A stretch of DNA of 64,000 bases from Halegenticoccus tardaugens. Lineage in GTDB: Archaea; Halobacteriota; Halobacteria; Halobacteriales; Haloferacaceae. The notes beneath the pieces are model-generated. The model ran no database searches. It had not been told where the DNA came from and saw only the letters and a list, made by a program, of their open reading frames with translations. The stretch covers positions 681,708-745,707 of the forward strand of contig NZ_SDIC01000002.1 of NCBI RefSeq assembly GCF_004116405.1. Reading direction: 5' to 3'. Both the position numbers and the translations under genes were made by a program. Below are positions 18,145-49,254 of this stretch, one piece after another; the stretch's first letter is position 1; each line of letters begins with the position of its first letter.

Positions 18145-18145
18145 C

Positions 18146-21962: not shown

Positions 21963-21992
21963 GGTAGCGCGATGGAGAAACCACTCTCTATC

Positions 21993-22405: not shown

Positions 22406-22417
22406 TCGCAATCGATT

Positions 22418-27075: not shown

Positions 27076-27118
27076 TGAGTGCCTCGCCGAGGTCGTCGGA
27101 TGACTTCTATAGTAGTCG

Positions 27119-27610
27119 TCAGAAGTAGTTGCTCATATCTGGAATAGAAAGTCGGCCAAGTGCAGTGTCGATCGCTGTGTTGAGTTCGTCGAGAGACTCA
27201 AAGAATCGGTTGCCAAGAGCGTCTTTCAGTTGTCTCCAATACTCTTCAACCGGGTGTAACTCCGGTGAGTACGCCGGCAATCTCACGAGGGCGAGGTCGT
27301 CACGGGCCGTAAGGTCCGTGACGGACGACGCTCGGAAATACGATGCTCCATCGAGTACGACAATCAAATCTTCTTGGAATTTTTCACACAATGCGAGAAT
27401 GAAGTGTTTCGCGTGATCGGCAGGTACGTACTCCTCGAATCGTGAGAAGAAGCGATCACCGAGAACGGTGATCGCACCGAGTAAGCAGGTCCAGTCACGT
27501 TGCCCAGAGAGTTCGACTGATGGACGCGTGCCGCGCGGAACCCACGCGACACGCGGCTCAACTTGCACGGATTTCTTGGTTTGGTCGATACAAACTACCG
27601 TGGCGTCCAT
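27119..27610 (-). CDS. IS630 transposase, DDE catalytic part
   Basis: 163 residues beginning MDATVVCIDQTKKSV, which supplies the first catalytic Asp. The second Asp is in EDLIVVLDGASYF and the final Glu in SPELHPVEEYWRQLK. The tail GNRFFESLDELNTAIDTAL is typical. The frame overlaps the end of the helix-turn-helix frame (27595-28104) by 16 bases and sits in the -1 frame relative to it, so a functional enzyme may need ribosomal frameshifting at the junction, as in other IS630 elements. No classical slippery heptamer in the right phase is visible. Confidence 0.85.
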   Translation of the reverse strand: MDATVVCIDQTKKSVQVEPRVAWVPRGTRPSVELSGQRDWTCLLGAITVLGDRFFSRFEEYVPADHAKHFILALCEKFQEDLIVVLDGASYFRASSVTDLTARDDLALVRLPAYSPELHPVEEYWRQLKDALGNRFFESLDELNTAIDTALGRLSIPDMSNYF

Positions 27611-28104
27611 CTCTCGTCGCTTTGTTTGAGGTCGTCGTGAAACCCGTCTCGGTCTTCAGGCTCGGCTTCGGCGGCTGTTCGACGAGGTTTTTGGTAACTC
27701 AATCCCGCTTCTTTCATCAACCGTCGGCAGCTGGGGGTTGAGCAGTCAACGTCGAACGTTTCTTCGAGGAAATCCTCGAGGAGCGCCGGCGCGTCGATCC
27801 CTGCTTCAGTTGGCGGTTGCTGAAGCGTTTGTTCCAACTGGTTCTGTTGTTTTTCGGTGAGCTTACGCGGTCTTCCTGACCAATGATCGTCCTGAACAGC
27901 CTGCTTAAGCGGCTCTGTTTCGAGCCGCTTGAGCCAGCTGTAAATCGTTCGTCTCTGCACACTGTACCACTCGGCAAGTTCAGTTTGTGTGACACCGTTT
28001 TTGTACGCAATCGCTGCGGTAAGCCGTTGTGTCGGGTTGTTTTCTTCAACTTCGTTGAGCGCCCGCTGAAGTTCCTCGACAGAGAGTTCGTCGAGATGGT
28101 CCAT
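27595..28104 (-). CDS. IS630 transposase, N-terminal helix-turn-helix part
   Basis: 169 residues from the ATG at 28104. The paired helix-turn-helix region is visible: AIAYKNGVTQTELAEWYSVQRRTIYSWLKRL, followed by a linker GRPRKLTEKQQNQLEQTL and a second helical domain (SCRRLMKEAGLSYQKPRR). This part binds the terminal repeats. It ends at TAG shortly after the start codon of the catalytic frame. The helix-turn-helix and catalytic regions are both complete, so the element could be active if the frames are joined. Confidence 0.82.
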   Translation of the reverse strand: MDHLDELSVEELQRALNEVEENNPTQRLTAAIAYKNGVTQTELAEWYSVQRRTIYSWLKRLETEPLKQAVQDDHWSGRPRKLTEKQQNQLEQTLQQPPTEAGIDAPALLEDFLEETFDVDCSTPSCRRLMKEAGLSYQKPRRTAAEAEPEDRDGFHDDLKQSDERWTPR

Positions 28105-28150
28105 GAGTAACCACAAACGCTTGGGTTGAAAGTTCTAACATCTATTATAG

Positions 28151-29093: not shown

Positions 29094-29861
29094 TTATGTA
29101 TAATTGATGTTGAGTTCGATCACGTTAGCGGCGGACTTGAGTTTCTCTGGAAACTTTTCTCGGTATAGGTCGCCCTGAAATCGACTCGTCGGGCCCGAGA
29201 TGCTGATGGCACCTTCAACTTCACCGTCCTTATTAATAATCGGAGTAGCGACGCATCGGAGTCCTTTAAGCCGCGCCTCGTCATCGAAAGCTACCCCTTT
29301 TTCTCGTACGTGTTCTAACCGCGAAAAGAGCGTATCACGTTCTGTAATCGTATTCTCCGTCGTTTCCGGGAGTCCATATCGATCAATGATTTCGTTGACG
29401 CGTTCACTGGATAAGTGTGCGAGGATTGCCTGTCCGAGGGCCGTATTATGCAGGTAAACGCGATGACCTATGTAAGAATCAGATTTAACTGCGTTTTCCC
29501 CGTTCGCTCGGTAGAGGTAGATCCCACGACCGTGTTGTTCAACGAGTAAATTAGTCATCTCACCAGTTTCTTCGGCGAGTTCGGTTACTTCGTCTTTGCT
29601 GGTCTGGTAGAGTAGTTCTTTGTGTCGAGCGTATCCTCCGAGATCAAGGAGTCGGAGTCCAACTTGGTACGTATTGCCATTCTTGACGACGTACCCGTCG
29701 TGTTCGAGCGTGTTTAGGTAGTTATGGATACTACTTTTCGAGAGCGAAAACACATCTGTCAATTCGGTCACTGTTGCTTCGTCGCGTGCTTTGATCGTTT
29801 CCAAGATCTTGAAGGTTGTGCGGGCTGTCTTGACCATTGTTTTGTTGTTTTGGTCGGCCAT
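29094..29861 (-). CDS. IclR-family transcriptional regulator of the fucose-type locus
   Basis: A complete 255-residue regulator: winged helix-turn-helix VTELTDVFSLSKSSIHNYLNTLEHDGYV at about 30-60, and the effector domain ending LRCVATPIINKDGEVEGAISISGP. It is divergent from the dehydrogenase at 30026, with ~165 bases between the starts; TTTATTAT lies ~28 bases ahead of its own ATG. Haloarchaeal IclR proteins often sit beside, and control, the sugar pathway they sense. Its position at the left end of the 30-42 kb block makes it the best candidate regulator of the fucoside genes. Whether it activates or represses cannot be told. Confidence 0.88.
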   Translation of the reverse strand: MADQNNKTMVKTARTTFKILETIKARDEATVTELTDVFSLSKSSIHNYLNTLEHDGYVVKNGNTYQVGLRLLDLGGYARHKELLYQTSKDEVTELAEETGEMTNLLVEQHGRGIYLYRANGENAVKSDSYIGHRVYLHNTALGQAILAHLSSERVNEIIDRYGLPETTENTITERDTLFSRLEHVREKGVAFDDEARLKGLRCVATPIINKDGEVEGAISISGPTSRFQGDLYREKFPEKLKSAANVIELNINYT

Positions 29862-30025
29862 AGTTACTCTGCAGTGTCAAACCATAATAAATCTTCATTA
29901 AGCTATTCTGGATAACAGTGTTTCTTCCCTCGGACGCTTTTCGAGAGATACCACTGTTGTATTACGAGACATTGTGAGACACAATATTGATATTCCCTCA
30001 GTGAAAATTGATATTCGAATTACCT

Positions 30026-31123
30026 ATGAGTTATCGCGCAGCGATTATCGGCACAGGCGGAATTGCAGGTATGGGAATCCTTGGTATGCACGACACGGAT
30101 GCAATTGGCAAGGAGAAGATTCGAGCCAGTCACGCGGGAGGGTACGATGCCACGTCTGATATCGAGTTAGTCGCAGTGGCTGACGTTGACGAGGAAAACT
30201 TGACGACGTTCGGTAACGCGTGGGGAATTCCCCCCGACCGGCAGTACCTTAGCCACGAATCGATGCTGAGCGAGGAAAACCTCGATGTCGTCTCGGTGTG
30301 TACACCGTCATTCCTTCACCACGACCACGTCGTCAGTACCGCGCGCTCGGCAGCCGCTCCCGATGTAATCTGGTGTGAAAAGCCAATCGCCTCGTCGGTT
30401 TCTGACGCCGAAGAGATGATCGATGTCTGTGAGGAGGAGAACACGAAACTTGTGGTCAACCATTCGTTCCGGTTCACAAACAAGCTTCAACAGCTGTACG
30501 CCCTGCTCCAGGAGGAGCGACTGCTCGGTGAGGTCCATTCCGTCTCGACCCAATTTCGGATGGAACTGTTGCGCAACTCCACGCATCTGCTTGACACGCT
30601 CGTCTATCTGCTCGACTCACGTGCAGAACGTGTCAGTGGCTACATCTCCGGCGAGAATGAGGCAGTCGAATCGCTCAACGTCGGTCTCGAAGTTGACGAC
30701 TCGGCCGGCGGTGGGTTTGTGCTAATGAACGACGGGACGTTCGCCACCATTGACTGCACTATTCCGCGATCCCATTCATCGATGACTCTCCAGTTCATTG
30801 GGAGTGATGGGAAGCTCTATATGAATAACGACGACGGTGAGTGGCGCTACTGGCGACTGGAGGACAGCGACCACATCGAGACACCGCTCCCCGGGATTGA
30901 GAGCGCTTGGACGTGGAATGAGGACTACCAGGGCGCGTTCGCCAACGCCGCCTGCCACGTCCAGTCGCTGCTCGACGGGACGGCAACAAATGCGTCGACG
31001 GGTCGCGAAGCGTTGCGTTCACTCGAAATCATCGTCGGCTTCTACGTTTCGCACTACACCGGAAGTCAGGTCAATATCCCGCTGGAGCGACCGCTCCGCG
31101 ATGTCGAAATCACGTCCTGGTGA
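30026..31123 (+). CDS. Gfo/Idh/MocA-family oxidoreductase
   Basis: A 365-residue enzyme. The Rossmann loop GTGGIAGMGILGMHD follows the start, and WCEKPIASSVSDAEEMI carries the conserved EKP lysine. The second domain includes NHSFRFTNKLQQLYALLQEERLLGEVHSV. It is likely NAD(P)-dependent and cytoplasmic. It is the first gene to the right of the IclR regulator and converges on the sugar-acid dehydratase gene (48 bases between stops). In this context it could oxidise a fucose derivative or handle another glycoside-derived sugar; the sequence alone cannot decide. It is clearly different from the dehydrogenase at 19800-20900. Confidence 0.85.
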   Translation: MSYRAAIIGTGGIAGMGILGMHDTDAIGKEKIRASHAGGYDATSDIELVAVADVDEENLTTFGNAWGIPPDRQYLSHESMLSEENLDVVSVCTPSFLHHDHVVSTARSAAAPDVIWCEKPIASSVSDAEEMIDVCEEENTKLVVNHSFRFTNKLQQLYALLQEERLLGEVHSVSTQFRMELLRNSTHLLDTLVYLLDSRAERVSGYISGENEAVESLNVGLEVDDSAGGGFVLMNDGTFATIDCTIPRSHSSMTLQFIGSDGKLYMNNDDGEWRYWRLEDSDHIETPLPGIESAWTWNEDYQGAFANAACHVQSLLDGTATNASTGREALRSLEIIVGFYVSHYTGSQVNIPLERPLRDVEITSW

Positions 31124-31171
31124 ATCAGTGGTCAGCTAGCTGGTGCGAAAAAGCAGTGTCGTCGCGGAGCG

Positions 31172-32347
31172 TTACTCGTAGACGTGGACGCTACCGGTCT
31201 GGTTGTCCATGATGTAGTCCCAGGCGTACTCGACACCGAGTCCGGGGCCGTCGGGCACCGTGACCATGCCGTCGTCGTCGATGGTGTCGATCATGTCTGA
31301 GTAGTCACCCTCGTACACTGGCGGCTGAGTGTTTGGACAGTCGGGGTGAACAAGTGCGAGTTCGTAGTAGTTGGTGTTACGGATCGCGGCGATACATTGA
31401 CGTTGTGCCGGGCCTAGTGCGTGGAATTCCGTGTCGATACCGAAGGCTTCAGCGACATTCGCACGCTTCATCGCGCCTGTGATGCCTGCGTCGTACTCAG
31501 GATCGGCCCGCAGGAAATCCGTCGCCTCGTTGGCGAGGAAGCCCGTGGCTGGCTCCAATCCGCGAACGTGCTCGGTCTGGAGGATCGAAATATCGATATT
31601 TTGATAGATCTTTCTGTGAGCGTGTTGTGAGATACCGTCATCGCGGTAGGGGTCTTCATACCAGAAGAAACCGGCCTCATCGAGCGTGTGGCCGAGTTTC
31701 AGCGCGTCGACAAGCGTTTCGAGTTCGCAAGCCGGGTCGCACATTAGGTCCACTTTGTCGCCGACACGACCACCGAGCAGCAGTGCGGTTTCAATCTCAC
31801 GGTCGAGGTCGCGTGAGCCTTCGCTGCCGCCCCAGCCGTGGATCTTGAACGCCTGATAACCCATTTTCAAACACTCCTCGGCGAACTCGGCGAACGCTTC
31901 GGGAGAGTCTAGTCCGCCGTTTTCGTCGCCGTGGTAGGTTGAGGCGTATGCGGGGAACTCGGTACGGTAGGTTCCTAGCAGTTCGTGAATCGGCACGTCG
32001 TAGTACTTGCCAGCCAGGTCCCACAGCGCGATGTCAATCGGATCCACTCCCATCCGGTCGTACTTTCGCAGCGCACGTTTGATCTCACTCCAGTGTTTCT
32101 CACGTTCGATCGGGTTCTTGCCCACGAGGTAGTCGGCAAACATGTTAATCTGAGCTGCGCCAGGGGAGTTGCCGCCGACGTACTCACCCGTGATGCCTTC
32201 GTCCGTGTGAACTGTCAATGCGAACAGTTTACGCTCCGTGACTTCGCCCGGCTCGTACACGAGGTTGAAGCCGTGCTGGTCGGTGCCAACGTTTGCGATC
32301 GGGTATGCAAACTCCACCGATTCGATCCTGGTAATTTCAGGTGCCAT
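31172..32347 (-). CDS. Enolase-superfamily sugar-acid dehydratase (mandelate racemase/muconate lactonising type)
   Basis: A 391-residue enzyme with the N-terminal capping domain (to ~115) and a modified TIM barrel. K168-x-H170 (FKIH) is on the second strand, metal ligands are D204 (LMCDP), E231 (WYEDPY) and E259 (QTEH), and H309 lies in DTEFHALG on the seventh strand. These match the acid-sugar dehydratase/mandelate racemase branch. The enzyme probably removes water from an aldonic acid to give a 2-keto-3-deoxy acid; L-fuconate is the best guess from its neighbours. It is divergent from transporter operon 2. A TATA-like TTTAAT lies ~28 bases ahead of the start. A truncated copy lies at 1913-2242. 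Confidence 0.87.
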   Translation of the reverse strand: MAPEITRIESVEFAYPIANVGTDQHGFNLVYEPGEVTERKLFALTVHTDEGITGEYVGGNSPGAAQINMFADYLVGKNPIEREKHWSEIKRALRKYDRMGVDPIDIALWDLAGKYYDVPIHELLGTYRTEFPAYASTYHGDENGGLDSPEAFAEFAEECLKMGYQAFKIHGWGGSEGSRDLDREIETALLLGGRVGDKVDLMCDPACELETLVDALKLGHTLDEAGFFWYEDPYRDDGISQHAHRKIYQNIDISILQTEHVRGLEPATGFLANEATDFLRADPEYDAGITGAMKRANVAEAFGIDTEFHALGPAQRQCIAAIRNTNYYELALVHPDCPNTQPPVYEGDYSDMIDTIDDDGMVTVPDGPGLGVEYAWDYIMDNQTGSVHVYE

Positions 32348-32387
32348 ATCAATTCCAGATATAGCACAGGATTAAATCTCTGTGTTT

Positions 32388-32406
32388 CGACCGGTTGACG
32401 ACCGGT
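32388..32406. promoter_or_regulatory. Candidate operator: CGACCGGT repeated with an 11-bp period
   Basis: CGACCGGT occurs at 32388-32395 and again at 32399-32406, separated by TGA, so the copies are exactly 11 bases apart, one helical turn. ACCGGT inside each copy is also a palindrome. The site lies in the divergent promoter region between the dehydratase (start 32347) and the solute-binding protein (start 32474), about 40 bases upstream of one start and 70 of the other. It is a good place for a shared regulator, perhaps the IclR protein of 29094-29861. Confidence 0.4.
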
Positions 32407-32473
32407 GTTTTGAGAAAAATCATAGACAATTATTAAATATTAATTACATCTTGGGAAAGCTTCATCTACCACT

Positions 32474-33910
32474 ATGCCGAAGTTTCACACGGTCATGATT
32501 GACGAAGAAAGGCGGCGAACCCTCAGAATTATTGGCGCAGCCGGAATGACCGGACTTGCAGGATGCACTGGTGGCGGTGGAAATAATGAAAGCAGCGGCA
32601 ACGGTGAAGGTGATAATCCCAATGCGATATCGTGGTGGAACATCGACGTCCAGGGCACTGCCAAAGAGGCGGCTGCAAAGCTTGAGAGCATGTTTGAAGA
32701 GCAGACGGGCATCCAGGTTGAACAGACAAAATACGAGAACACGCCCTACAAGCCAGCTGTCTCGAACGCGCTGGGAACGGACGATGCCCCGGATCTGTTC
32801 TACATCTGGCCCGGCCCGAATCGACTCGGCCGATACGTTCGTAACGGGAACGTTATTCCACTTGACGGCGCCCTTTCAAAAGAGCAGAAGAATGCCCAGA
32901 TTCCGGACGCGATTCGCGGAGCACAGTACAAGAAAGATGAAATTCTGTCATGGCGAGATAATAGCGGAGAGATGTACAGTATCCCGTACGACCTGGCGGG
33001 CATCCCGATCTGGTACAATAAGAATGTACTCAGCGAAGCTGGTGTCGACCCAGAACGACTTAAACACGCGACGGACATCACGTGGAGCGAGTTCCTCGAC
33101 ATCTGTTCGAAGCTGTCCAACGCTGGCTACACGGCGATCGAGTGTGGGAACCGGAACAGCTGGACTATCGGTCACTGGGTCTCGGCGTTCATGATCAAGG
33201 CGGCAGGCGTCGACCACTACTACAACGCGGCATTCGGGCTGGAAGGTGCGTCGCTCACCGACGAGCCCTTCCAGACGGCCCTCTCGCGGCTCAAACAGTT
33301 GTACGACAATGGCTACTTCAATCAGGACATCAACTCCCTGAATAACAACGAAGCTGCGGCCCTGTTCTTCAGTGGACAGGCCGGCTTCTGGTCCCAAGGA
33401 ACGTGGGTCAGCGAGGTTATCTCCTCACAGGCTCCCGACGACTTTGCTGGGATTCCTGACGTCATGGACTACATGTGGTGGCCAGCTTTCCCAGACGTAT
33501 ACGAGAACAGCGAGAACGAGCGGATGAGTGTCGTGCCCAATTCCACGGTTGCCATCAGTTCCCAAGCTGCCAAACGTGGCGACGAGCACCTTACCAAGGT
33601 CAAAAAATTCGCGAGCTTCTTCGGCAGTCTCGACGCGCAGAAAGCCTTCTTCGAGATTACGGGGTCGCCCGTTACGCGAACCGACGTGTACGACGAGGTG
33701 GATATGTCGCCAAGTCAGCAGACGACCACCGCCACGGTCGGCCAGCTTCAGTCTGCCGATGAGGTTGGGATGGTGTTCGACGTTGCCTTCCTCCCCGAGA
33801 CGACCGAAGCGTTGTTATCGGGCGGTCAGGAACTGTTCACCGGTACCTCCCCGTCGAAGGTGTTGCAGAACGTTCAGAAAACGAACCAGGATGCACTCTC
33901 AAACCTCTAG
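32474..33910 (+). CDS. ABC sugar importer 2, extracellular solute-binding lipoprotein
   Basis: A 478-residue family 1 solute-binding protein. The Tat signal has R13-R15 (ERRRTLRI), and the lipobox LAGC places the lipidated Cys at 31, followed by a Gly/Asn/Ser-rich spacer. The mature domain has the usual openings AISWWNIDVQGTAKEAAAKL and DAPDLFYIWPG. An AT-rich AATATTAATTA at about -28 supports the ATG at 32474. The two permeases follow after 6 bases and overlap one another, forming one operon; the ATPase is at 39177. The GH29 fucosidase right after the permeases suggests that the ligand is a fucose-containing oligosaccharide or L-fucose. Confidence 0.9.
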   Translation: MPKFHTVMIDEERRRTLRIIGAAGMTGLAGCTGGGGNNESSGNGEGDNPNAISWWNIDVQGTAKEAAAKLESMFEEQTGIQVEQTKYENTPYKPAVSNALGTDDAPDLFYIWPGPNRLGRYVRNGNVIPLDGALSKEQKNAQIPDAIRGAQYKKDEILSWRDNSGEMYSIPYDLAGIPIWYNKNVLSEAGVDPERLKHATDITWSEFLDICSKLSNAGYTAIECGNRNSWTIGHWVSAFMIKAAGVDHYYNAAFGLEGASLTDEPFQTALSRLKQLYDNGYFNQDINSLNNNEAAALFFSGQAGFWSQGTWVSEVISSQAPDDFAGIPDVMDYMWWPAFPDVYENSENERMSVVPNSTVAISSQAAKRGDEHLTKVKKFASFFGSLDAQKAFFEITGSPVTRTDVYDEVDMSPSQQTTTATVGQLQSADEVGMVFDVAFLPETTEALLSGGQELFTGTSPSKVLQNVQKTNQDALSNL

Positions 33911-33916
33911 TGAAGC

Positions 33917-34861
33917 ATGAGCACCGAAAAATCACGGAGCGATGTTCGGGTCACCGTCTCTTCAGCGCTAGATGCGACGAGAGATTTTATCGAGGATCAT
34001 CCCCACTGGCTGTTCCTCCTGCCCGCACTCCTGATCTACCTCCCGTTCCTGGTAATACCAGCACTGGGCGTCTTCGGGCTTAGTACGTTCCAGTGGTCTG
34101 GCCTGGGCGACATGTCGTTCACCGGCACCGAGAACTTTATCGGAGCTTTGACTGATTCCGTTGTTAGAACATCGCTGTGGCACAATGTCGAGATTGCATT
34201 CTGGAGCCTCATCCTGCAAGCGGGTATCGGGCTGGCGTTGGCACTCGCCATCTACCGCCTCTCGGACCGCCTTCGGCAGTTCTTCCAGGTCGTGTATCTA
34301 CTCCCGATGACGCTCATGGCGGTGGCCGTCTCAATGATCTGGGGATATATGTACAACCCGTCATACGGGGTTCTGAACACAGTCATAGAGGAGATCGGTA
34401 TCAACTGGAATCCGCTGTGGCTCGGCAGTAAGAGCCTCGCGTTGTACGCCATCATTATCGTAGCGACGTGGCAGTGGACCGGATTCCGAGTCGTCCTCTG
34501 GCTCGCTGGACTCGATAGCATCGACAAAAGCTTGCTCGAAGCGGCACGTATGGACGGTGCCGGCCCACTACAGCGGTTCCGTTACATCACGCTGCCCCTG
34601 CTTAAGCCGGTCGCCATCTTCATCACCATCTACACCGTTATTGGCTCGTTCAACTCATTCGTGTATGTCTGGGTCATGACCAGCGGTGGTCCCGGACACG
34701 CCAGCGAAGTGATGGTCACGTGGATCTACAAGAACGCGTTCCTCCAGTCGAACTTCGGGCAGGCCGCGGCCATCAGCGTTCTGCTGTTCGTAATCGTCCT
34801 CGTACTCTCTCTGGTGAACATGCGCCTCGGTGATCGCGAGGCTGGAGGCGTGAACCCATGA
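33917..34861 (+). CDS. ABC sugar importer 2, permease (MalF type)
   Basis: A 314-residue membrane protein with six hydrophobic segments (first: HWLFLLPALLIYLPFLVIPALGVFGL). The EAA coupling loop is LLEAARMDGAGPLQRFRYITLPLLKP. Its ATG at 33917 is 6 bases past the stop of the solute-binding protein. The end overlaps the next gene by four bases (ATGA), so translation is coupled. Confidence 0.9.
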   Translation: MSTEKSRSDVRVTVSSALDATRDFIEDHPHWLFLLPALLIYLPFLVIPALGVFGLSTFQWSGLGDMSFTGTENFIGALTDSVVRTSLWHNVEIAFWSLILQAGIGLALALAIYRLSDRLRQFFQVVYLLPMTLMAVAVSMIWGYMYNPSYGVLNTVIEEIGINWNPLWLGSKSLALYAIIIVATWQWTGFRVVLWLAGLDSIDKSLLEAARMDGAGPLQRFRYITLPLLKPVAIFITIYTVIGSFNSFVYVWVMTSGGPGHASEVMVTWIYKNAFLQSNFGQAAAISVLLFVIVLVLSLVNMRLGDREAGGVNP

Positions 34862-35721
34862 GTGTAGGTTCCGACTACGCAGATCCGATTCGAGAGACCG
34901 CCGCGGAATTGTCCGGTAAGCTCTCGGCCCTGTTCGTGTTCGTTGTGGCGGGTGTGTTTCTCGTCCCGATACTGTTGTTACTCGTAACGAGTGTCAAATC
35001 GAAAACCGAGATTTTCACCAGTCCGCTGGCGTTACCTCAAGAGCTTCAGATCGAGAATTACGCCAATGCCTGGACGACCGGCGGATTTGACCAGTACTTC
35101 ATGAACAGCGTTATCGTCGTCTCGATTAGCCTCGTGTCGATCCTGCTGTTGGCGAGTCTGGCAGCGTACGCGCTCGTCCAGTTCGACTTCCCGGCAGACG
35201 ACTTCATGCTGGTGTTCTTCCTGGCAGGGTTCATGATCCCGCCTCAGGTGTTACTCGTTCCGCTATATACCATCATGAACGCGCTGAATCTATTGAACAC
35301 TTACTTCAGCCTCATCTTCGCGTATGTGGCGTTCGGGCTTCCGTTCTCGGTGTTCCTGTTGCGGCAGTTCTTCGTTACGATTCCGGACACCTACGCCGAA
35401 GCCGCGCGCATGGATGGCTGTACCGAGTTACAAGTATTCTTCCGCATCTACCTGCCGCTGTCGATGCCGGCACTGGCTGCCGTCGCTATCTACCAGTTCG
35501 TGTTCCTCTGGAACGAGTTCCTGTACGCAATTATCTTCATCACCGACGACGCGAAGCGGACATTACCGGCCGGTCTCATGGCTTTCCAGGGCCAGTACGC
35601 CGGTGACTGGGCGCAACTCGCTGCTGGGATCGTCATTGCGGTCACACCGACCGTACTCTTCTTCCTGGTCTTCCAGCGGCAGTTCATGCGCGGCATCTCG
35701 ATGGGGGCGACGAAGGGATAG
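34858..35721 (+). CDS. ABC sugar importer 2, permease (MalG type)
   Basis: A 287-residue membrane protein, six hydrophobic segments, with EAA loop YAEAARMDGCTELQVFFRIYLPLSMPAL. It starts inside the stop of the MalF-type gene (ATGA overlap) and completes the channel of importer 2. The GH29 fucosidase begins 72 bases downstream, probably in the same transcript. Confidence 0.9.
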   Translation: MSVGSDYADPIRETAAELSGKLSALFVFVVAGVFLVPILLLLVTSVKSKTEIFTSPLALPQELQIENYANAWTTGGFDQYFMNSVIVVSISLVSILLLASLAAYALVQFDFPADDFMLVFFLAGFMIPPQVLLVPLYTIMNALNLLNTYFSLIFAYVAFGLPFSVFLLRQFFVTIPDTYAEAARMDGCTELQVFFRIYLPLSMPALAAVAIYQFVFLWNEFLYAIIFITDDAKRTLPAGLMAFQGQYAGDWAQLAAGIVIAVTPTVLFFLVFQRQFMRGISMGATKG

Positions 35722-35793
35722 GCCTCCTCGGCGTCTCGTTATCGACGTCCTTCGTTCTTCGCTTCTCGTCTCTCAATTAGCTGCAGAACCGGA

Positions 35794-36933
35794 ATGACTA
35801 TTGAGACCGCCTCACATTATTCGGACGTGACTTCGTCAGCCCCAAGTTACCTCGACGAGTACGAACAGCAGTATGAAGAGGACCCACGACAAGCAGCGCG
35901 CGAGTGGTTCGCCGACGCGAAGTATGGTCTCTTTCTTCACTACGGATTATACTCGCTGCTGAGCAATCATGAGTGGGTCCAGTATCACGAACGAATCGAA
36001 CCCGCCAACTACGCGCAACTCCAGCACCACTTCACTGCGGAGTCGTTCGACGCCGAGCATATCGTCGAGTTTGCACAGGATTGCGGGATGAACTACATCA
36101 CGTTCACCGCACGCCATCACGAGGGATTCTGTCTCTTCGAAAGCGACTACACGACCTACTCAGCTGTCGAGGCTCCGGCGGGCCGCGACCTCGTAGCCGA
36201 ACTGTCTGATTCATGTCAGGAAGCTGGCCTAGGACTCTTTCTATACTACTCGCACGGGTACGACTGGCATCATCCGCACGCCCCGAACCGTGACGAGTGG
36301 GGTGATCCGGTCCGCCCCGCCTACGACGAGCAACCTGGATGCTATGCCGACGCTGGCCACGATCTCGACATCTACCTCGACTACCTCGAGTCCCAGGTCG
36401 AGGAATTGCTCACCCAGTACGGTCCAATCGCCGGCATCTGGCTCGATCCGTCCTATCTTCCGCAAAGAGATCCAGAGAGATTCGCCAAGGCGTTCCACCT
36501 CGAATCGTTGTACAAGACGGTCCGCGACTCTCAGCCCCAGACGCTGATCAGCTACAAGGAAGGCGTCACTGGAACAGAAGACTTTGTCACGCCAGAACAT
36601 GAGACGGGTGCACGCGACGTACTCGGCGAGGTGTGTACGACGATGATTCCCGGTGAGGCATACCGCGACGAGATGGCCGGACAGTGGGGCTACGGCGGCG
36701 AGGGCGGCCAAAACCAGCAGCAAGTCTCGACCTCGTGGGGCTATGCGAAGGCGGCTGAGGGGATACATCGCGACGCTGATGAGGTCTGGGAGAAGCTTTC
36801 GGCGACGCTGGCCGATGGGTACAATCTGCTATTGAACGTCGGGCCGCTCCCCGATGGCCGTCTCGACCCGGAAGATGTCGAGACGCTTCGTGCGGTCGGC
36901 GATCGAATCGAGTGCGAGGGGTATCCTGACTGA
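35794..36933 (+). CDS. GH29 alpha-L-fucosidase, intracellular
   Basis: A 379-residue catalytic domain of family GH29. The N-terminal block WFADAKYGLFLHYGLYSLL, the ITFTARHHEGFCLFES strand with the conserved His pair near 108-109, and the likely nucleophile D218 in GIWLDPSY are visible. YNLLLNVGPLPDGRLDPEDVETL at the C-terminus is the standard end of the catalytic barrel. There is no C-terminal beta-sandwich and no signal peptide, so it is a short cytoplasmic form. The enzyme releases L-fucose with retention of configuration. It follows importer 2 and precedes the fucose oxidation genes, so it is the natural entry point of the pathway. Confidence 0.9.
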   Translation: MTIETASHYSDVTSSAPSYLDEYEQQYEEDPRQAAREWFADAKYGLFLHYGLYSLLSNHEWVQYHERIEPANYAQLQHHFTAESFDAEHIVEFAQDCGMNYITFTARHHEGFCLFESDYTTYSAVEAPAGRDLVAELSDSCQEAGLGLFLYYSHGYDWHHPHAPNRDEWGDPVRPAYDEQPGCYADAGHDLDIYLDYLESQVEELLTQYGPIAGIWLDPSYLPQRDPERFAKAFHLESLYKTVRDSQPQTLISYKEGVTGTEDFVTPEHETGARDVLGEVCTTMIPGEAYRDEMAGQWGYGGEGGQNQQQVSTSWGYAKAAEGIHRDADEVWEKLSATLADGYNLLLNVGPLPDGRLDPEDVETLRAVGDRIECEGYPD

Positions 36934-37037
36934 TTGCCACGCGTAGCTTCCACTGGCGACCCTGTTGTATCGCAACTGACACCGTGTTCGACCGGCCGCA
37001 CCGGTGGATTCTTGGAAACCCACACTATGCATTCAGT

Positions 37038-37844
37038 ATGGTCGGCCACACTACGTACGACTACCGCGGTGAATCGGCTATCGTCACTGGCTCAACGAAA
37101 GGAATCGGTCGTGGGATCGCAGAGGGGCTCGCAAACGTGGGCGCGAACGTCGTCGTCAATTCTCGGACGGAAGACGACGTGACCGCGGTCACCGAGGAAC
37201 TCGATGAACGAAGCGAGGGCGAGGTAATCGGCGTCACGGCGGACATGGCCAAGCTAGACGAGATCGAGAACCTCGTCGAGACGGCCATCGACGCGTTCGG
37301 TGAGATCGACCTGTTGGTCAACAATGCCGCTGTATGGCCACGGGAGGAGTCTTTCGCCGAGGCGTCGATCGAGGACTGGGACTTCACCATGAACGTGAAC
37401 GTCCGGGCGCAGTACTACGCCTCGAAGCTCATCGCGGCTCACATGATCGACCAGGGCGTTGAGGGTTCGATTATCAACCACACCAGCCAGACTGGAGACC
37501 GACGAACAGGTCACCGTGGCTTATACGGTATTTCAAAGACCGCGATCAACGGTCTTACTTGGCGGATGGCCCACGAACTCGCCGAGCACGGCATCCGGAT
37601 GAACGCCATCTCGACGGATGTGACTAAGACCTACCAATTACGCTACGAGGCTGAGATGATCGCCGAGAACGATCCCGATCGGACACCCGAGGACGTACTC
37701 AGAGAGTGGGGCAAGGCGCGCCCGATTGGCCGGCTCGGCCAGCCCGAAGACCTCGCGAACGCGGTGCTGTACCTCGCCAGCGACGCGTCGTCCTACGTCG
37801 TTGGTACGATCCTGCGTGTAAGCGGAGGCGGCAATCTGGAGTGA
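37038..37844 (+). CDS. Short-chain dehydrogenase/reductase, candidate L-fucose dehydrogenase
   Basis: A 268-residue classical SDR: cofactor loop TGSTKGIGRG at 17-26, NNAA near 95-98, and catalytic S150, Y163 and K167 (YGISK). The tail VLYLASDASSYVVGTILRVSGGG is typical. In bacterial and haloarchaeal deoxysugar oxidation, an SDR oxidises the free sugar to the lactone using NAD(P). Its position between the fucosidase and the lactonase (4 bases to the next gene) points to L-fucose 1-dehydrogenase by inference. Oxidation of 2-keto-3-deoxyfuconate is an alternative. The ATG at 37038 is used because the conserved domain begins there. Confidence 0.85.
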   Translation: MVGHTTYDYRGESAIVTGSTKGIGRGIAEGLANVGANVVVNSRTEDDVTAVTEELDERSEGEVIGVTADMAKLDEIENLVETAIDAFGEIDLLVNNAAVWPREESFAEASIEDWDFTMNVNVRAQYYASKLIAAHMIDQGVEGSIINHTSQTGDRRTGHRGLYGISKTAINGLTWRMAHELAEHGIRMNAISTDVTKTYQLRYEAEMIAENDPDRTPEDVLREWGKARPIGRLGQPEDLANAVLYLASDASSYVVGTILRVSGGGNLE

Positions 37845-37848
37845 TCCA

Positions 37849-38721
37849 ATGCGATTTATTGACACACATACGCACGCTTGGGGCGTGAACACCGACGAAC
37901 TCCCGTGGCAGGCCGAGGTGTTACCACCGGGGTGGAACGGTCCCTACACTGGACGTGATCTGGTCACGGATATGGATGCAGTCGGCGTCGACGAGAGCGT
38001 CGTTGTTACGACGCCACTGTACGGACGTGGCGTTCGCGCCAACGAGTACACGATGCGAGTAATCGAGGCCTTCCCTGACCGACTGTGGGGTGTCTGCCTC
38101 ATGGACTTCTTTCAGGACAATCCCGAGCAGGTACGCGCGGACCTCCGGCGCGTCACCGGCCATGATCGGATATTGGGCGTGCGTATGCACGCCTGTCTCG
38201 AATACGCCAAGTACCCAGCCGAGTTGAACCGGACGGCCGACTGGATCCTCGACAATGCGCTCGAACCGGTCTGGGAGGAAGCTGCGGCACTCGACGCGGC
38301 CGTGTTCATCTTCCCGAAGGCAGAGCAACTGCCGATGGTCGCAGAAATCGCCGATGAGCATCCGGGCGTGCAACTCATCGTCGATCATATGGCGTTCCCG
38401 GACGAGATGACCGCGCCTGACGAGGCTCCGTGGAGGGCCTTCGAATCGGTGGCCGAGTGCGAAAACGTCGCCGTCAAGGTAAGTTCCCTTCCACGATCGG
38501 CCGAACGCGAGTGGCCCTACGAGGACTTGCACGGTTATGTCCGCGCTCTCGTCAAGTGGTTCGGTCCCGAGCGAATGATGCTCGGCTCGGACTACCCGTG
38601 GATGGACGACTGGGCAAGTTACGAGGACTGCCTTTCGTGGATCGAGGAGACGCCGTTTCTCTCCGCGCGCGATGTCTCGTATCTCTCGCACCGGACGTTT
38701 GAACGAATTCATGAGGTGTAG
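37849..38721 (+). CDS. Amidohydrolase-family lactonase, candidate L-fuconolactonase
   Basis: A 290-residue amidohydrolase (Amidohydro_2 branch). The N-terminal metal motif is DTHTHAW (H-x-H), a later His is in LIVDHMAFP, and the conserved Asp is in MLGSDYPW near residue 247. Relatives include L-fuconolactonase, L-rhamnono-gamma-lactonase and pyrone-dicarboxylate lactonase. Placed 4 bases after the SDR and just before the mutarotase, it most likely opens L-fucono-lactone to L-fuconate in the cytoplasm. The ATG is preceded by GGAGTGATCC, a plausible ribosome binding site. Confidence 0.86.
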   Translation: MRFIDTHTHAWGVNTDELPWQAEVLPPGWNGPYTGRDLVTDMDAVGVDESVVVTTPLYGRGVRANEYTMRVIEAFPDRLWGVCLMDFFQDNPEQVRADLRRVTGHDRILGVRMHACLEYAKYPAELNRTADWILDNALEPVWEEAAALDAAVFIFPKAEQLPMVAEIADEHPGVQLIVDHMAFPDEMTAPDEAPWRAFESVAECENVAVKVSSLPRSAEREWPYEDLHGYVRALVKWFGPERMMLGSDYPWMDDWASYEDCLSWIEETPFLSARDVSYLSHRTFERIHEV

Positions 38722-38789
38722 TTCGGCCGGACGAATTGTATTTATTGCCCAACATAATCTTCTTTAGCGACTCTACCGTTACCGTTGGT

Positions 38790-39134
38790 ATGTCATCAGA
38801 CACAGAACGAGCGGTGTATATTCAGCACATCGACTCCGAGCACAGAGACGAGTACCTCAAAGCACACGAGGACGTTCCTAAGGGTGTCTCACAGGCGATG
38901 AAACGAGGCGGGGTCACGGAGTTCGAACTGTACGTTAGAGACGATCTTGCCGTCTGTATTCTCGAAGCGGAGGACATTGGTGTCTACCTCGACGAAGTCG
39001 ACGGCGACGAGGCGGTGGAGGAGTGGGAACGCTATGTCGCCCAATTCAAACGCGAGGGCGTCGACGTGGATGACGATGAAGAACCGATTCCGTTCATGGA
39101 GCGCATCTGGACGCTTTCGCGCGCGTCGGTGTAA
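38790..39134 (+). CDS. L-rhamnose/L-fucose mutarotase-like protein
   Basis: A 114-residue protein of the L-rhamnose mutarotase (RhaM) family. YIQHIDSEHRDEYLKAHEDVPKGVSQAMKRGGV and FELYVRDDLAVCILEAED match the conserved core, with the His of AHEDVP in the catalytic position. Such enzymes speed the exchange of alpha and beta anomers of 6-deoxy sugars. Next to a retaining fucosidase and a dehydrogenase that usually prefers one anomer, it fits L-fucose mutarotation. The start at 38790 is the first good ATG; a longer in-frame extension begins at 38736. The ATPase gene follows after 42 bases. Confidence 0.82.
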   Translation: MSSDTERAVYIQHIDSEHRDEYLKAHEDVPKGVSQAMKRGGVTEFELYVRDDLAVCILEAEDIGVYLDEVDGDEAVEEWERYVAQFKREGVDVDDDEEPIPFMERIWTLSRASV

Positions 39135-39144
39135 CAAGGAACAA

Positions 39145-39152
39145 GATTTATC
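39145..39152 (+). promoter_or_regulatory. TATA box of the second ABC ATPase gene
   Basis: GATTTATC is centred ~28 bases ahead of the ATG at 39177, suggesting that this ATPase also has its own leaderless promoter. Confidence 0.5.
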
Positions 39153-39176
39153 ATCGAATACGGTCACCTGTTTTCT

Positions 39177-40346
39177 ATGGGCGACCTAGAGATAGCGAAC
39201 CTGACCAAACAATTCAGTGACGGGTCCGGGACAGCGATCGTCGCCGTTGACGACCTCTCGATTTCGATCAAAGACGGCGAATTTCTTGTCCTCGTCGGTC
39301 CCTCTGGCTGTGGAAAATCGACCACGTTGCGCTGTATCGCCGGTCTCGAATCAGCGAGCGAAGGCACCATCTCGCTCAACGGGACCGATATCACACACCA
39401 GCGCTCTCGTAACCGAGACATCGCGATGGTGTTCCAGAACTACGCGCTGTACCCCCACATGACCTCGCGCAAGAACATGGGGTTCGGGCTAAAGATGGGG
39501 ACGGACCTTTCCTCCGATGAGATCAACGAGCGCATTGAGAAGACTGCCAAGATGATGGGAATCGAGCAATTGCTCGACAAGAAGCCCAGGGAACTCTCCG
39601 GCGGCCAGCAACAGCGCGTGGCTCTTGGGCGCGCTATTGTCAGAGATCCGGAGCTGTTCCTGATGGACGAGCCACTGTCGAACCTAGACGCCAAGCTCCG
39701 CACCCAGATGCGGACCGAGTTACAGAATTTGCAGACAGATCTCGACGTAACGACGATCTACGTCACCCACGACCAGACGGAGGCGATGACGATGGGCGAT
39801 CGGATCGCCGTTCTCAATGACGGTGAGCTCCAGCAGATTGGGACACCCTTGGAGTGTTATCACCTCCCCGCTAACCGCTTCGTCGCCGGATTCATCGGGT
39901 CGCCGTCAATGAACTTCTTCGAGATGATTCAGGACCGAGACGTAGGGACACTGGTCAACGACGAGTTCGAGTACTCCCTTGACGCCACGACCGCCAAGTT
40001 CATTGCTGAGGTCACGGACACCCTCACGCTGGGCATCCGTCCCGAGGACATCCGCGTCGCAGCCAGCGGGGACGAGAATGTCCTCACCGTCGAGGTCGAT
40101 GTCGTGGAGCCACTGGGCGACCAGTCGTTCGTCTACTTCAAGGTCGGCGACCAGACGTACACGGCGAGTATCGACGGCGAGGAGTACATTCGAGAAGGGA
40201 CAGAAATCAACGTGGTGTTCCCCCAAAAGCGGGTTCACGTCTTCGACCGCCAGACCGGTGAAGCAATCAAAAACCGTGAACCACCTGAGGCGGCCCAGGC
40301 CGAGGCGGTTGAGTTCCAGGACTCAACTTCGTTCGCCGTTAAGTAG
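39177..40346 (+). CDS. ABC sugar importer 2, ATP-binding subunit (MalK/UgpC type)
   Basis: A 389-residue CUT1-type ATPase: Walker A GPSGCGKST near 40-48, Q-loop in AMVFQNYALYPHM, signature LSGGQQQRVALGRA, Walker B LFLMDEPLSNLDAK, H-loop VTHDQTEAMTM, then a TOBE-type tail with LGIRPEDIRV. It completes importer 2 (32474-35721), separated from it by the catabolic genes. It is closely related to the ATPase of importer 3 (53042-54178) and less so to that of importer 1. The ATPases of such systems can often serve several permeases, so sharing among the three importers is possible. Confidence 0.92.
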   Translation: MGDLEIANLTKQFSDGSGTAIVAVDDLSISIKDGEFLVLVGPSGCGKSTTLRCIAGLESASEGTISLNGTDITHQRSRNRDIAMVFQNYALYPHMTSRKNMGFGLKMGTDLSSDEINERIEKTAKMMGIEQLLDKKPRELSGGQQQRVALGRAIVRDPELFLMDEPLSNLDAKLRTQMRTELQNLQTDLDVTTIYVTHDQTEAMTMGDRIAVLNDGELQQIGTPLECYHLPANRFVAGFIGSPSMNFFEMIQDRDVGTLVNDEFEYSLDATTAKFIAEVTDTLTLGIRPEDIRVAASGDENVLTVEVDVVEPLGDQSFVYFKVGDQTYTASIDGEEYIREGTEINVVFPQKRVHVFDRQTGEAIKNREPPEAAQAEAVEFQDSTSFAVK

Positions 40347-40364
40347 TGCGACGGTTGGGTCGTC

Positions 40365-41792
40365 TCAGTGCGTGTTTTCAACGCTATTCAGTCGGATTGT
40401 GTATGCATGGTCGTGGTCGGGACGTTCCTGGAGTTCGATCGCGAGTCGGTCATCCGCGAGAGTGACGGTGAGTGAGCGATGTCCGTCAGCGGTCAGCAGT
40501 GTCGTTTCCGGTGCGTCGTCAAGGTCGATGTGGGCCGGCACCGACAGAGTTAGTTTGTCACCGGGCCAGCCGAGCGCGATTGCATAGAGATCACCGTCGT
40601 GGTGGGTGTAGCGCACTTTGGTGTCGCTGACATCGTCCTCGGCAACGAGCCAGGGGCGTGATCCGAAAATTGCCTCGCCGTTCACGTCGAGCCACTCACC
40701 GAGTGCCTGAAGGCGGTCCTTCTGTATGTCCGGAATCGTCCCGTCTGCTTTCGGACCGACGTTGATGAGGAGGTTGCCGTTCTTCGAGACGATGTCGACG
40801 AACGATTGGATCAATTCTTCGCGCGAGAGGTGATCGTCCTCGTCTTCCCCGGCGTTGTAGCCGAAAGAGTGGCCGATACCGCGATTACCCTCCCACGGCT
40901 CGTCTCGAAGTTCGTCGAACGTCGCGTACTCGGGCGTGATGAAATCGCCGTGCGTGTCCTCCGTCTCACGATTTTCGAGATCGATGGTCGGACCGATGGC
41001 GTCAGTCGAAGCTCGGTCGTTGACGGCGACTTCCTGGCCACGCTCGGCGGCGCGGTTGTAGTAATCGGCGATCAGCTCCTGAGTGTGCAGATGCTTGCCG
41101 TCAGCCTTGGGTACATCGAACCAGAGCATGTCGGGGTTGTATTTCCGGATCAACTCTCGATGCTTGGCGTTCATGAAGGCGACGTACTCCGAACCCGGTC
41201 CGCCCCGTTCTTCGCTAGGTCCACCTTTCTCGTAGTCGGGGTGTCCAAATTGGCCGTCGAAACCGGGCTGATAGTAGTTATAATTGGCGTGGTAAGAGGC
41301 AGCGAATCGAAGTCCCTGATTGCGAACAGCATCCGCGAGGTCGCCGACGAGGTCGCGCTCGGGTCCCATCTCAACGGCGTTGTACTTCGTGTAGTGGCTG
41401 CCCCACAGCGGGAAGCCGTCGTGGTGTTCGCCCGTGAGAACGACGTAGCCGGCTCCGACCTCGTCGAAGAGTGACGCCCATTCGTCGGGATCCCAGTTTT
41501 CGGCAGTGAAGTCATCGACGAAGTCGATATATTCGGCGTCTTCGCCGTAGGTTTCCTCGTGATACTCTTTCGTCGGCGACCCCTTCTCGTACATGTAGTA
41601 GGGGTACCACTCGGCGTACGGTGAGGCGTTCTCGCCACCGATTTCGGCGCCGGTCGGAGCCCACGCCGGGACCGAATAAATTCCCCAATGAATGAAGATA
41701 CCCAATTTTGCGTCACGGAACCACTCCGGTAGCTCGTGAGAGTCTAACGACTCCCAAGACGGCTCATATTCAGCCATGTGATGAAAATCCAC
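40365..41792 (-). CDS. GH29 alpha-L-fucosidase with C-terminal beta domain
   Basis: A 475-residue family GH29 enzyme, longer than its neighbour at 35794. The catalytic barrel shows WFRDAKLGIFIHWGIYSVPAW, VVLTGEHHDGFPLW and the likely nucleophile D226 in DMLWFDVPKADG. GNLLINVGPKADGTIPDIQ ends the barrel, and the last ~90 residues form a beta-sandwich tail. There is no signal peptide, so it also acts inside the cell. It is convergent with the ATPase of importer 2, 18 bases apart. The two fucosidases belong to visibly different subgroups and may split different linkages. TTTATTTC on the plus strand ~28 bases ahead supports the start at 41792; MAEYEP at 41777 is an alternative. Confidence 0.9.
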   Translation of the reverse strand: MDFHHMAEYEPSWESLDSHELPEWFRDAKLGIFIHWGIYSVPAWAPTGAEIGGENASPYAEWYPYYMYEKGSPTKEYHEETYGEDAEYIDFVDDFTAENWDPDEWASLFDEVGAGYVVLTGEHHDGFPLWGSHYTKYNAVEMGPERDLVGDLADAVRNQGLRFAASYHANYNYYQPGFDGQFGHPDYEKGGPSEERGGPGSEYVAFMNAKHRELIRKYNPDMLWFDVPKADGKHLHTQELIADYYNRAAERGQEVAVNDRASTDAIGPTIDLENRETEDTHGDFITPEYATFDELRDEPWEGNRGIGHSFGYNAGEDEDDHLSREELIQSFVDIVSKNGNLLINVGPKADGTIPDIQKDRLQALGEWLDVNGEAIFGSRPWLVAEDDVSDTKVRYTHHDGDLYAIALGWPGDKLTLSVPAHIDLDDAPETTLLTADGHRSLTVTLADDRLAIELQERPDHDHAYTIRLNSVENTH

Positions 41793-42562: not shown

Positions 42563-43447
42563 ATGAAAACGCGTTCACTGGGCGAGACCGGGCACGACAG
42601 CACTGTGATGACGTTCGGTGCGATCGTGCTGAACTGGCTCGAACAGGAGGGGGTCGATCAGATGGTGGAACTCGTCCTGGATCACGGAGTCAATCACTTT
42701 GACGTGGCCCCGGCCTACGGCGACGCCGAACTGAAGCTGAGACCGAAGCTCCACCAGCACCGCGAGGACATCTTCCTCGGGTGCAAGACCCAGGAGCGGG
42801 GCTACGAGGGTGCGAAGCGGAAGCTCGAACAGTCGCTCGACCGCCTTGGCGTGGACACCATCGACCTGTACCAAGTCCATGGTCTGGAGTACGAGCACGA
42901 AATCGACAGGATCACGGCCGACGACGGTGTCCTCGAGGCGATGCGGGAGGCTAAGGCCGACGGCGTCATCGATCACATCGGGCTGACCAGTCACGGGAAC
43001 CCCCAGCTCATCCTCGAGGCGATCGACCGCATCGACGACCTCGAGACGGTGATGTTCCCGCTGAACCCGGTTGTCGTCGGGAAGGACGACGAGGATCACG
43101 ACTACCAGGCGGTGCTCGAGCGCGCGAACGAGGAGAACATCGGCACGCTCGGCATCAAGGCCTTCGCGAAGGGGTCGTGGCCGCCGACCGAGGAACTCCC
43201 CGAGCGGGACCGCCCGTACGCGAATTGGTATGAGCCCGTCGACACGTCCGAGAAGATCCGTGACCGGTTCGACTTCGCTGCCTCGCAGGGCCTGACCAGC
43301 GTCGTCAGTCCCGGCGACCCGAAGCTCGTCGCGATGGTGCTTGAGGCCGCGAGCCGGTATGACGGCATGGACGAGGCGGCCCAGCGATCGCTCGTCGAGG
43401 AGGCTCGCCACGACGAGAGCCCCGTCCCGGAACAGCTCCACCACTGA
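42563..43447 (+). CDS. Aldo/keto reductase-family oxidoreductase
   Basis: A 294-residue (alpha/beta)8 barrel. The catalytic tetrad of the family is visible: Asp and Tyr in HFDVAPAYGDAE, Lys in FLGCKTQERG and His in YQVHGLE. The C-terminal third (IKAFAKGSW, LTSVVSPGDPKLV) fits the NADP(H) site of the YdjG/Tas-like branch. It reduces or oxidises a carbonyl or sugar substrate that is not predictable; a sugar reductase role is possible given the neighbourhood. Base composition is much more GC-rich than in the genes to its left. A methyltransferase gene follows 14 bases later in an apparent operon. Confidence 0.87.
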   Translation: MKTRSLGETGHDSTVMTFGAIVLNWLEQEGVDQMVELVLDHGVNHFDVAPAYGDAELKLRPKLHQHREDIFLGCKTQERGYEGAKRKLEQSLDRLGVDTIDLYQVHGLEYEHEIDRITADDGVLEAMREAKADGVIDHIGLTSHGNPQLILEAIDRIDDLETVMFPLNPVVVGKDDEDHDYQAVLERANEENIGTLGIKAFAKGSWPPTEELPERDRPYANWYEPVDTSEKIRDRFDFAASQGLTSVVSPGDPKLVAMVLEAASRYDGMDEAAQRSLVEEARHDESPVPEQLHH

Positions 43448-45768: not shown

Positions 45769-45932
45769 GCTCGAATCGTTTCGAACGTGATTCAGGCGCA
45801 GCTACGGCCTCGGTTCACGCCGTCCACCTGTCAGCGTACTCTCGCTGGTCGTCTCGGAGCGTAAATCGACGCGAGTACAAAGACACTCGATGGGTGATGT
45901 CACCCCTATCAAGACCGTTGCCGCATTACTCC

Positions 45933-45940
45933 ATTTTATC
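45933..45940 (+). promoter_or_regulatory. TATA box of the first GH4 gene
   Basis: ATTTTATC is centred ~28 bases ahead of the ATG at 45965. This supports a leaderless start there rather than at the earlier in-frame ATG at 45890. Confidence 0.55.
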
Positions 45941-45964
45941 ACACGGCATCGCCTGATGGGATCC

Positions 45965-47287: not shown

Positions 47288-47410
47288 AACGTGACGCCGG
47301 CAAACTGTTCGATCAACTTTCAGGGGCGTATTCTCGGTGTGAGAACTCTTTCATCTCACTCCTTCAGATCGCCGATCAAGAAAACGATTTGTACGTTGCT
47401 CGAAAAGCCA

Positions 47411-48307: not shown

Positions 48308-48341
48308 GCGTGTACCTCCATTCGCGTTCGTTGTTGGATCA

Positions 48342-49253: not shown

Positions 49254-49254
49254 T

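Follow-up and report, generated by a model that had tools for sequence, protein, structure and literature searches.

Within a 64,000-nucleotide stretch of the Halegenticoccus tardaugens genome (hereafter the window; the end of contig C7, NZ_SDIC01000002.1, 745,707 bases), we describe a locus of ~13 kb (window positions 29094-41792) whose products would probably take up fucosides, free L-fucose from them in the cytosol and oxidize this sugar to 2,4-diketo-3-deoxy-L-fuconate. A hydrolase whose gene lies elsewhere in the genome would then probably split the diketo acid. The new element of the locus appears to be a Gfo/Idh/MocA oxidoreductase (gene gfo) in the place of the 4-dehydrogenase, the rest being apparently a variant of a known pathway. 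We tentatively propose that this haloarchaeal enzyme might be a 2-keto-3-deoxy-L-fuconate 4-dehydrogenase, a third family for such a step beside the short-chain (SDR) and medium-chain (MDR) dehydrogenases/reductases. It might act as a general 2-keto-3-deoxy-acid dehydrogenase in a cassette of dehydratase, Gfo and fumarylacetoacetate hydrolase-family protein (FAH) that stands behind varied front ends (fucosides, TRAP-imported sugar acids, perhaps rhamnose and unsaturated uronates). The genome assembly comprises 4.89 Mb in 14 contigs (completeness 99.98, contamination 7.88).

Gene content of the locus and the proposed pathway

All genes that the original prediction had listed as packed into these ~13 kb are present and intact, and each has a main Pfam match above the gathering cut-off. 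One gene had been overlooked, namely gfo (30026..31123, forward strand; PF01408, 70.4 bits), for which a start at ATG 30026 is more likely than at TTG 30008. It lies between the dehydratase gene and a divergent gene for an IclR-family protein (29094..29861, reverse strand; IclR_C, 138.8 bits, with HTH_IclR), which would be the local regulator. No convincing motif for a shared IclR operator emerged when the intergenic DNA of six syntenic loci was searched for gapped palindromes.

Uptake of fucosides would be carried out by an ATP-binding cassette (ABC) importer encoded on the forward strand. It consists of a solute-binding protein (32474..33910; SBP_bac_1, 80.8 bits) with Tat-like (RR..LR) and lipobox (LAGC) motifs recognized by eye in its N-terminal region, two permeases (33917..34861 and 34858..35721; BPD_transp_1, 70.2 and 71.9 bits) and a MalK/UgpC-type ATPase (39177..40346; NF008653, 449.3 bits, cut-off 432). 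Two GH29 proteins, both predicted cytosolic alpha-L-fucosidases, would free L-fucose: GH29-1 (35794..36933, forward strand; PF01120, 200.2 bits) and GH29-2 (40365..41792, reverse strand; PF01120, 359.4 bits). Both score above the family cut-off and have the nucleophile Asp aligned; in GH29-2 this Asp aligns with a Gly in 2wsp, which we take to be a nucleophile mutant. The best PDB match of GH29-1 is the alpha-L-fucosidase 8z63 (357 bits), while the best matches of GH29-2 are the fucosidases 2zwy and 1hl8 (318 bits), followed by 7snk (alpha-L-fucosidase) and 7ljj (exo-alpha-L-galactosidase) at 254 bits each. As predicted earlier, neither N-terminus resembles a signal peptide by eye, so that the substrate would enter through the ABC importer. 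No GH29 gene was found in the genome besides these two. The presence of 22 sulfatase-family matches in the genome makes sulfated glycans one possible source of the imported fucosides.

Oxidation of the freed sugar would begin with a RhaM-family protein as L-fucose mutarotase (FucM; 38790..39134, forward strand; PF05336, 45.6 bits; start likely at ATG 38790). An SDR (37038..37844, forward strand; adh_short_C2, 187 bits) is proposed as L-fucose 1-dehydrogenase (FucA) giving L-fuconolactone, and an Amidohydro_2 lactonase (37849..38721, forward strand; PF04909, 108.8 bits) as the L-fuconolactonase (FucB) giving L-fuconate. A dehydratase of the enolase superfamily (MR/MLE; 31172..32347, reverse strand; PF13378, 123.2 bits) would act as L-fuconate dehydratase (FucC) and yield 2-keto-3-deoxy-L-fuconate. 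Gfo would replace the bacterial SDR-type FucF and convert this acid to 2,4-diketo-3-deoxy-L-fuconate, which a FAH acting in trans as FucG could split to pyruvate and L-lactate. The mutarotase, 1-dehydrogenase, lactonase and dehydratase families of the bacterial pathway known as route 3 are found together in the locus by Pfam, their activities being predicted. The SDR, for which ATG 37038 is the preferred start although the open frame could also begin at GTG 36984, has the Ser and YxxxK, and its gene stops 4 bp ahead of the lactonase gene. The dehydratase has its best PDB match in 1rvk/4hcd (159 bits), and its residues K168, H170, D204, E231, E259 and H309 are at least 97% conserved among 57 homologues. 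Fucoside uptake, intracellular cleavage and oxidation to the 2-keto-3-deoxy acid, as in the original prediction, remain the best reading of these genes and are backed by the linkage described below, but the overlooked gfo gene probably extends the route by one step.

Conservation of the locus and linkage to GH29

Near-syntenic loci in other genomes indicate that the arrangement is more than a chance one. They occur in Haladaptatus halobius (L003), Halogeometricum pallidum (L005) and, without GH29-1, Halocatena marina (L004, L060), as well as in the genomes G340 (L109) and G149 (L100 and L202), in the latter of which no GH29-1 was found in the corresponding position. The IclR protein is 74-82% identical to its counterparts in L004, L005, L100 and L109 and 56% identical to that in L003. 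A GH29 gene remnant with stop codons is present just upstream of gfo in G149 (C1:1129299-1129683). An aldo/keto reductase gene lies downstream of GH29-2 (window 42563-43447), and a homologue is likewise located downstream in G149.

Scanning the genomes of named species for the lactonase yielded 26 loci, 25 from Halobacteria and one from Vibrio. The family separates into a close clade (~53-83% identical) and a distant clade (~33-40%), and by identity the annotated L-rhamnonolactonase rhcC falls in the distant one. H. tardaugens carries one lactonase of each clade.

A class-wide survey was made on 391 Halobacteria genomes sampled evenly from the class, with PF01120 for GH29 and E-value thresholds of 1e-80 for the close lactonase clade, 1e-60 for window-type Gfo and 1e-120 for the dehydratase. 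GH29 is present in 14 genomes, the lactonase in 36, Gfo in 79 and the dehydratase in 137. The lactonase was detected in 13 of the 14 GH29 genomes (expected 1.29; Fisher p 4.7e-14), Gfo in all 14 (expected 2.83; p 7e-11) and Gfo in 31 of the 36 lactonase genomes (p 2e-19), in tests that count genomes as independent although related species are not. The dehydratase, too, occurs in every one of the 14 GH29 genomes, sometimes on a different contig. Start-to-start distances are below 5 kb between GH29 and the lactonase in 12 of the 14 genomes, and below 11 kb between GH29 and gfo in 13. The exceptions are G392, with lactonase and GH29 on separate contigs, and G217, where the lactonase is absent and GH29 lies close to Gfo and to a hydrolase-type FAH. 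This linkage of GH29, lactonase and Gfo across the class supports the fucose reading of the locus well. The original prediction had called the coupling of these functions unusual in an archaeal locus. GH29 is indeed rare, but where it occurs it nearly always lies close to this lactonase, and passages of PMC6336799 already describe L-fucose oxidation in the archaeon Sulfolobus.

Two modules around gfo

To place Gfo in the pathway we used 93 gfo-centred loci (92 stretches, mostly of 18 kb, and the window), the genes of which were labelled by BLAST. A dehydratase orthologue is present in 39 of them and directly adjoins gfo in 35. A FAH of any type is present in 44, the hydrolase type in 38 and a second type, described below as XacE-like, in 17; lactonase (20 loci), SDR (17), LUD (lactate-use; 14), RhaM (13) and GH29 (12) are the other labels. 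In 14 loci both a dehydratase-family gene and a hydrolase-type FAH gene lie within 3 kb of gfo. Among the 20 loci with the lactonase, 15 have the SDR and 13 have RhaM, against 2 and none, respectively, of the 73 loci without it. A dehydratase or FAH is present without any of SDR, lactonase, rhcC or SMP30 in 45 of the 93 loci, the reverse being seen in two. SDR and RhaM thus track the lactonase and Gfo tracks the dehydratase and FAH, which suggests two modules, SDR-lactonase-RhaM and dehydratase-Gfo(-FAH). Since Gfo accompanies dehydratases and FAH even where neither a sugar dehydrogenase nor a lactonase is nearby, we read it as the candidate 2-keto-3-deoxy-L-fuconate 4-dehydrogenase.

The locus of Haladaptatus halobius has a hydrolase-type FAH, a dehydratase and Gfo directly ahead of the binding-protein gene. 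Here (L003:1837-4373) the dehydratase gene is inverted and located upstream of gfo beside the FAH gene, and a second dehydratase survives as a fragment (residues 322-388) behind gfo at 4173-4373. In our quick tree, the Gfo of H. halobius clusters with L107, L123 and L162 on another branch than the Gfo of the window, the nearest relatives of which are four rows from fucoside-type loci (98) and then seven dehydratase-FAH-Gfo-LUD loci (94). Because of this different branching and the dehydratase fragment, the FAH-dehydratase-Gfo set of H. halobius looks swapped in, which favours the dehydratase-Gfo-FAH cassette as a working unit. Two genomes, those of Halostagnicola larsenii (G207) and G235, have a second, distinct Gfo beside or within 1.5 kb of RhaM and near the lactonase; the stretch contains no SDR of the window type, while the window-type Gfo is kept. 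The slot of the 1-dehydrogenase (C1) alone seems to have been replaced in these two genomes.

A second dehydratase-Gfo pair of H. tardaugens (C10:66.8-69.0 kb) is accompanied by UxaA, LUD and TRAP genes. The MR4-type dehydratase adjoining this pair (L097; G000 C10:69.2-70.3 kb) matches in two pieces and is perhaps broken. In two further loci (L208, L212), haloarchaeal GH88-DUF2264-DUF362-aldo/keto reductase-Gfo-IclR clusters were seen, perhaps unsaturated-uronate loci that use the same Gfo family.

Gfo itself has the Rossmann N-domain, the EKP motif and the C-terminal alpha/beta domain of its superfamily, and its structure is predicted with a pLDDT of 90.5. In the structure comparison the top match by VIA-align is WlbA with UDP-GlcNAcA, a uronic acid; the top rows of Foldseek itself are other Gfo proteins, with WlbA at rank 15. 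The haloarchaeal D-xylose 1-dehydrogenases Gfo6 belong to the same superfamily and lie in some loci near enolase-superfamily dehydratases. However, they share only 19-20% identity with the window-type Gfo, which lacks both their catalytic-helix Asp and the loop. This Asp, present in two annotated Gfo6 proteins, is Arg in 42 of 42 aligned Gfo orthologues and the loop preceding it is short, and against the Gfo6 aldose 1-dehydrogenase model NF041392 Gfo scores 54.5 bits (cut-off 350). If our proposal is correct, a dehydrogenase family has been independently recruited for the central step of an oxidative deoxy-sugar route, and a conserved family found in about one fifth of the surveyed Halobacteria genomes gets a specific proposed reaction within a testable gene set for deoxy-sugar use in haloarchaea.

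Evidence against the proposed pathway and alternative explanations

Several observations weigh against the pathway as drawn. The lactonase scores 50.4 bits on the L-fucono-1,5-lactonase model NF052480 (cut-off 400), though this is still its best-scoring NCBIfam model. The dehydratase gave no BLAST match at E<=1e-3 to one annotated Shinella L-fuconate dehydratase, and it has KIH (KxH) where L-fuconate dehydratase (FucD) has KMK (KxK). Its family is widespread, and a fucose specificity deduced from its distribution was rejected for this reason (137 of the 391 genomes). Around gfo, 15 of the 93 loci are without any scored dehydratase, FAH, C1 or LUD gene, and 12 have an aldo/keto reductase and ABC genes but carry neither a dehydratase nor a lactonase label; GH88 is present in one of these 12 and in a related locus. 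Neither a FAH nor an aldolase is encoded in the locus, and the three hydrolase-type FAHs of the genome that were scanned (of 11 FAH matches) score 160-215 bits on NF053535 (cut-off 500). Two more points, the residue at the position Tyr-3 of the SDR and the composition of the Haloarcula loci, bear on the alternatives.

The pathway could be the same with the two dehydrogenases exchanged, Gfo being the L-fucose 1-dehydrogenase and the SDR the 2-keto-3-deoxy-L-fuconate 4-dehydrogenase. The known bacterial 4-dehydrogenases (FucF) are SDRs, according to passages of PMC11199699, and the haloarchaeal genes annotated as D-xylose 1-dehydrogenase Gfo6 encode Gfo/Idh/MocA proteins. Most fucoside-type SDRs have Arg at Tyr-3, counted from the catalytic Tyr, which is the place of the carboxylate-binding Arg in the bacterial 4-dehydrogenase; this favours the reversed assignment. 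The SDR-type L-2-keto-3-deoxyfuconate 4-dehydrogenases are marked by the Arg/Thr patterns R-T-R-R, R-T-Y-R, R-R-R-T or R-R-F-T, and of two SDRs of Shinella the one that shows R-T-R-R by eye is matched better (27%, 80 bits versus 60.5). Aligned with this protein, most fucoside-type SDRs, and these alone, have the first Arg; the place of Thr183 is Val in the SDR, and the third and fourth positions vary with gap placement. The Haloarcula SDRs, from loci without GH29, lack the Arg at Tyr-3 and have Phe instead, a contrast that may mark a change of substrate. The SDR gene also tracks the lactonase across loci, in addition to its close spacing in the window, whereas gfo is mostly found in loci without the lactonase and with dehydratase or FAH, and the Gfo6 Asp is replaced by Arg in the window-type Gfo. 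We regard an exchange as unlikely and keep the SDR as the proposed 1-dehydrogenase. Similarity to PDB entries was uninformative for the role of the SDR, many SDRs scoring alike.

Alternatively, the oxidation set might serve mainly D-arabinose (or L-galactose), with the GH29 proteins supplying a related sugar such as L-galactose. Known L-fucose 1-dehydrogenases accept D-arabinose too, as passages of PMC6336799 state, and the PDB matches of GH29-2 include an exo-alpha-L-galactosidase. The Haloarcula loci have the same SDR, lactonase, dehydratase and Gfo with no GH29 in the stretches read, and with an XacE-like FAH and an aldehyde dehydrogenase, which fits a pentose such as D-arabinose. The fucoside locus, in contrast, has neither an aldehyde dehydrogenase nor a FAH gene, and the lactonase accompanies GH29 in all but one of the GH29 genomes. 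GH29-2 is closer to the alpha-L-fucosidase 2zwy than to the galactosidase, and it keeps the Phe of the fucosidase where exo-alpha-L-galactosidase carries Trp, a position which is presumably the methyl pocket. A main role in D-arabinose or L-galactose oxidation is rather improbable.

Cleavage of 2-keto-3-deoxy-L-fuconate to pyruvate and L-lactaldehyde by an aldolase encoded elsewhere (route 1), with another role for Gfo, is described for L-fucose in Sulfolobus solfataricus in passages of PMC6336799 and agrees with the lack of a hydrolase gene in the locus and with dihydrodipicolinate-synthase-type genes in 12 of the 93 gfo loci and one upstream of the H. marina locus, but hydrolase-like FAH genes in the H. 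halobius and G149 loci and LUD genes in 14 of the 93 gfo loci versus two sites in the entire H. tardaugens genome make it improbable, no search for aldolases having been made in that genome.

Completion of the proposed pathway

The original prediction of a complete system does not hold, because the locus encodes no enzyme that would cleave the keto-deoxy acid. The final enzyme is likely encoded elsewhere in the genome. All 11 FAH matches of H. tardaugens lie outside the locus, one of them in a rhamnose cluster on contig C10 that comprises MDR, rhcD, LLM, FAH and rhcC genes, with proteins 72-85% identical to those of Natronococcus. The FAH of this cluster, at 102.6 kb on C10, and a paralogue at C10:26.7 kb are similar to 2,4-didehydro-3-deoxy-L-rhamnonate hydrolase, with scores of 214 and 200 bits against a cut-off of 500, and are the most likely candidates for FucG. 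In H. halobius, the FAH encoded in the fucoside locus shares 67% identity with the C10:26.7 kb protein and 60% with that of the rhamnose cluster. L-fucose and L-rhamnose yield the same diketo acid, as passages of PMC11199699 describe, so that one hydrolase could serve both routes.

A reading of every FAH as a hydrolase was dropped after typing, as no NCBIfam model matched FAH2, FAH9 or the H. tardaugens FAH at C10:227 kb at 1e-20, and FAH3 and FAH6 are similar to these three. We take these proteins to be of an XacE-like type. The Haloarcula FAH adjoining Gfo is of this type.

Comparison with known systems

Non-phosphorylating L-fucose pathways have been described in bacteria (passages of PMC11199699 and PMC13406643) and an L-fucose route in Sulfolobus (PMC6336799, in part), and the natronoarchaeon Natrarchaeobius versutus AArcel7 is reported in a passage of PMC12343721 to grow on fucose, the isomer being unstated there. 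A full-text search of the open-licence literature returned no paper on a haloarchaeal L-fucose locus or a Gfo-type 4-dehydrogenase.

The closest parallel is the bacterial route 3 (FucM-FucA-FucB-FucC-FucF-FucG) of Xanthomonas, Burkholderia and Herbaspirillum (compare also the Shinella cluster), where mutarotase, dehydrogenase, amidohydrolase-type lactonase and enolase-superfamily dehydratase are likewise clustered with an importer and a regulator. The haloarchaeal locus differs in that a Gfo/Idh/MocA protein would take the place of FucF, FucG is missing, two cytosolic-type GH29 genes are present and the proteins are only distantly related, the lactonase being 27% identical to a Shinella homologue. 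The haloarchaeal L-rhamnose (rhc) cluster shares an IclR regulator, an amidohydrolase lactonase (rhcC, 34% identical), an enolase-superfamily dehydratase (rhcD, 30%) and a FAH hydrolase, with a diketo end product common to both pathways. In contrast, GH29 is absent from the rhc cluster of Natronococcus, whose oxidoreductases are of the MDR and LLM types. H. tardaugens carries both a fucoside and a rhamnose cluster. The Sulfolobus oxidation of L-fucose and D-arabinose (SSO1300, SSO3124) is also archaeal and non-phosphorylating and uses an enolase-superfamily dehydratase; passages of PMC6336799 give it an MDR-type 1-dehydrogenase and route 1 for L-fucose.

Surroundings of the locus in the window

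Another sugar importer is represented at window 45890-52857 by a binding-protein gene and one or more permease genes with a GH4 gene on either side, which makes the window a sugar-use island. On the other side of the locus, a second sugar cluster (window 13375-24367) combines a GH127 beta-L-arabinofuranosidase-type gene and a further Gfo/Idh/MocA protein with an ABC ATPase, a binding protein and two permeases. Between this cluster and the fucoside locus lie a DNA polymerase B fragment and pieces of an IS630-type transposase (window 25707-28116). Short stretches resembling the IclR protein (residues 124-178, 53%) and the dehydratase (residues 13-113, 56%) at window 1174-2212 are apparently remnants of a second copy.

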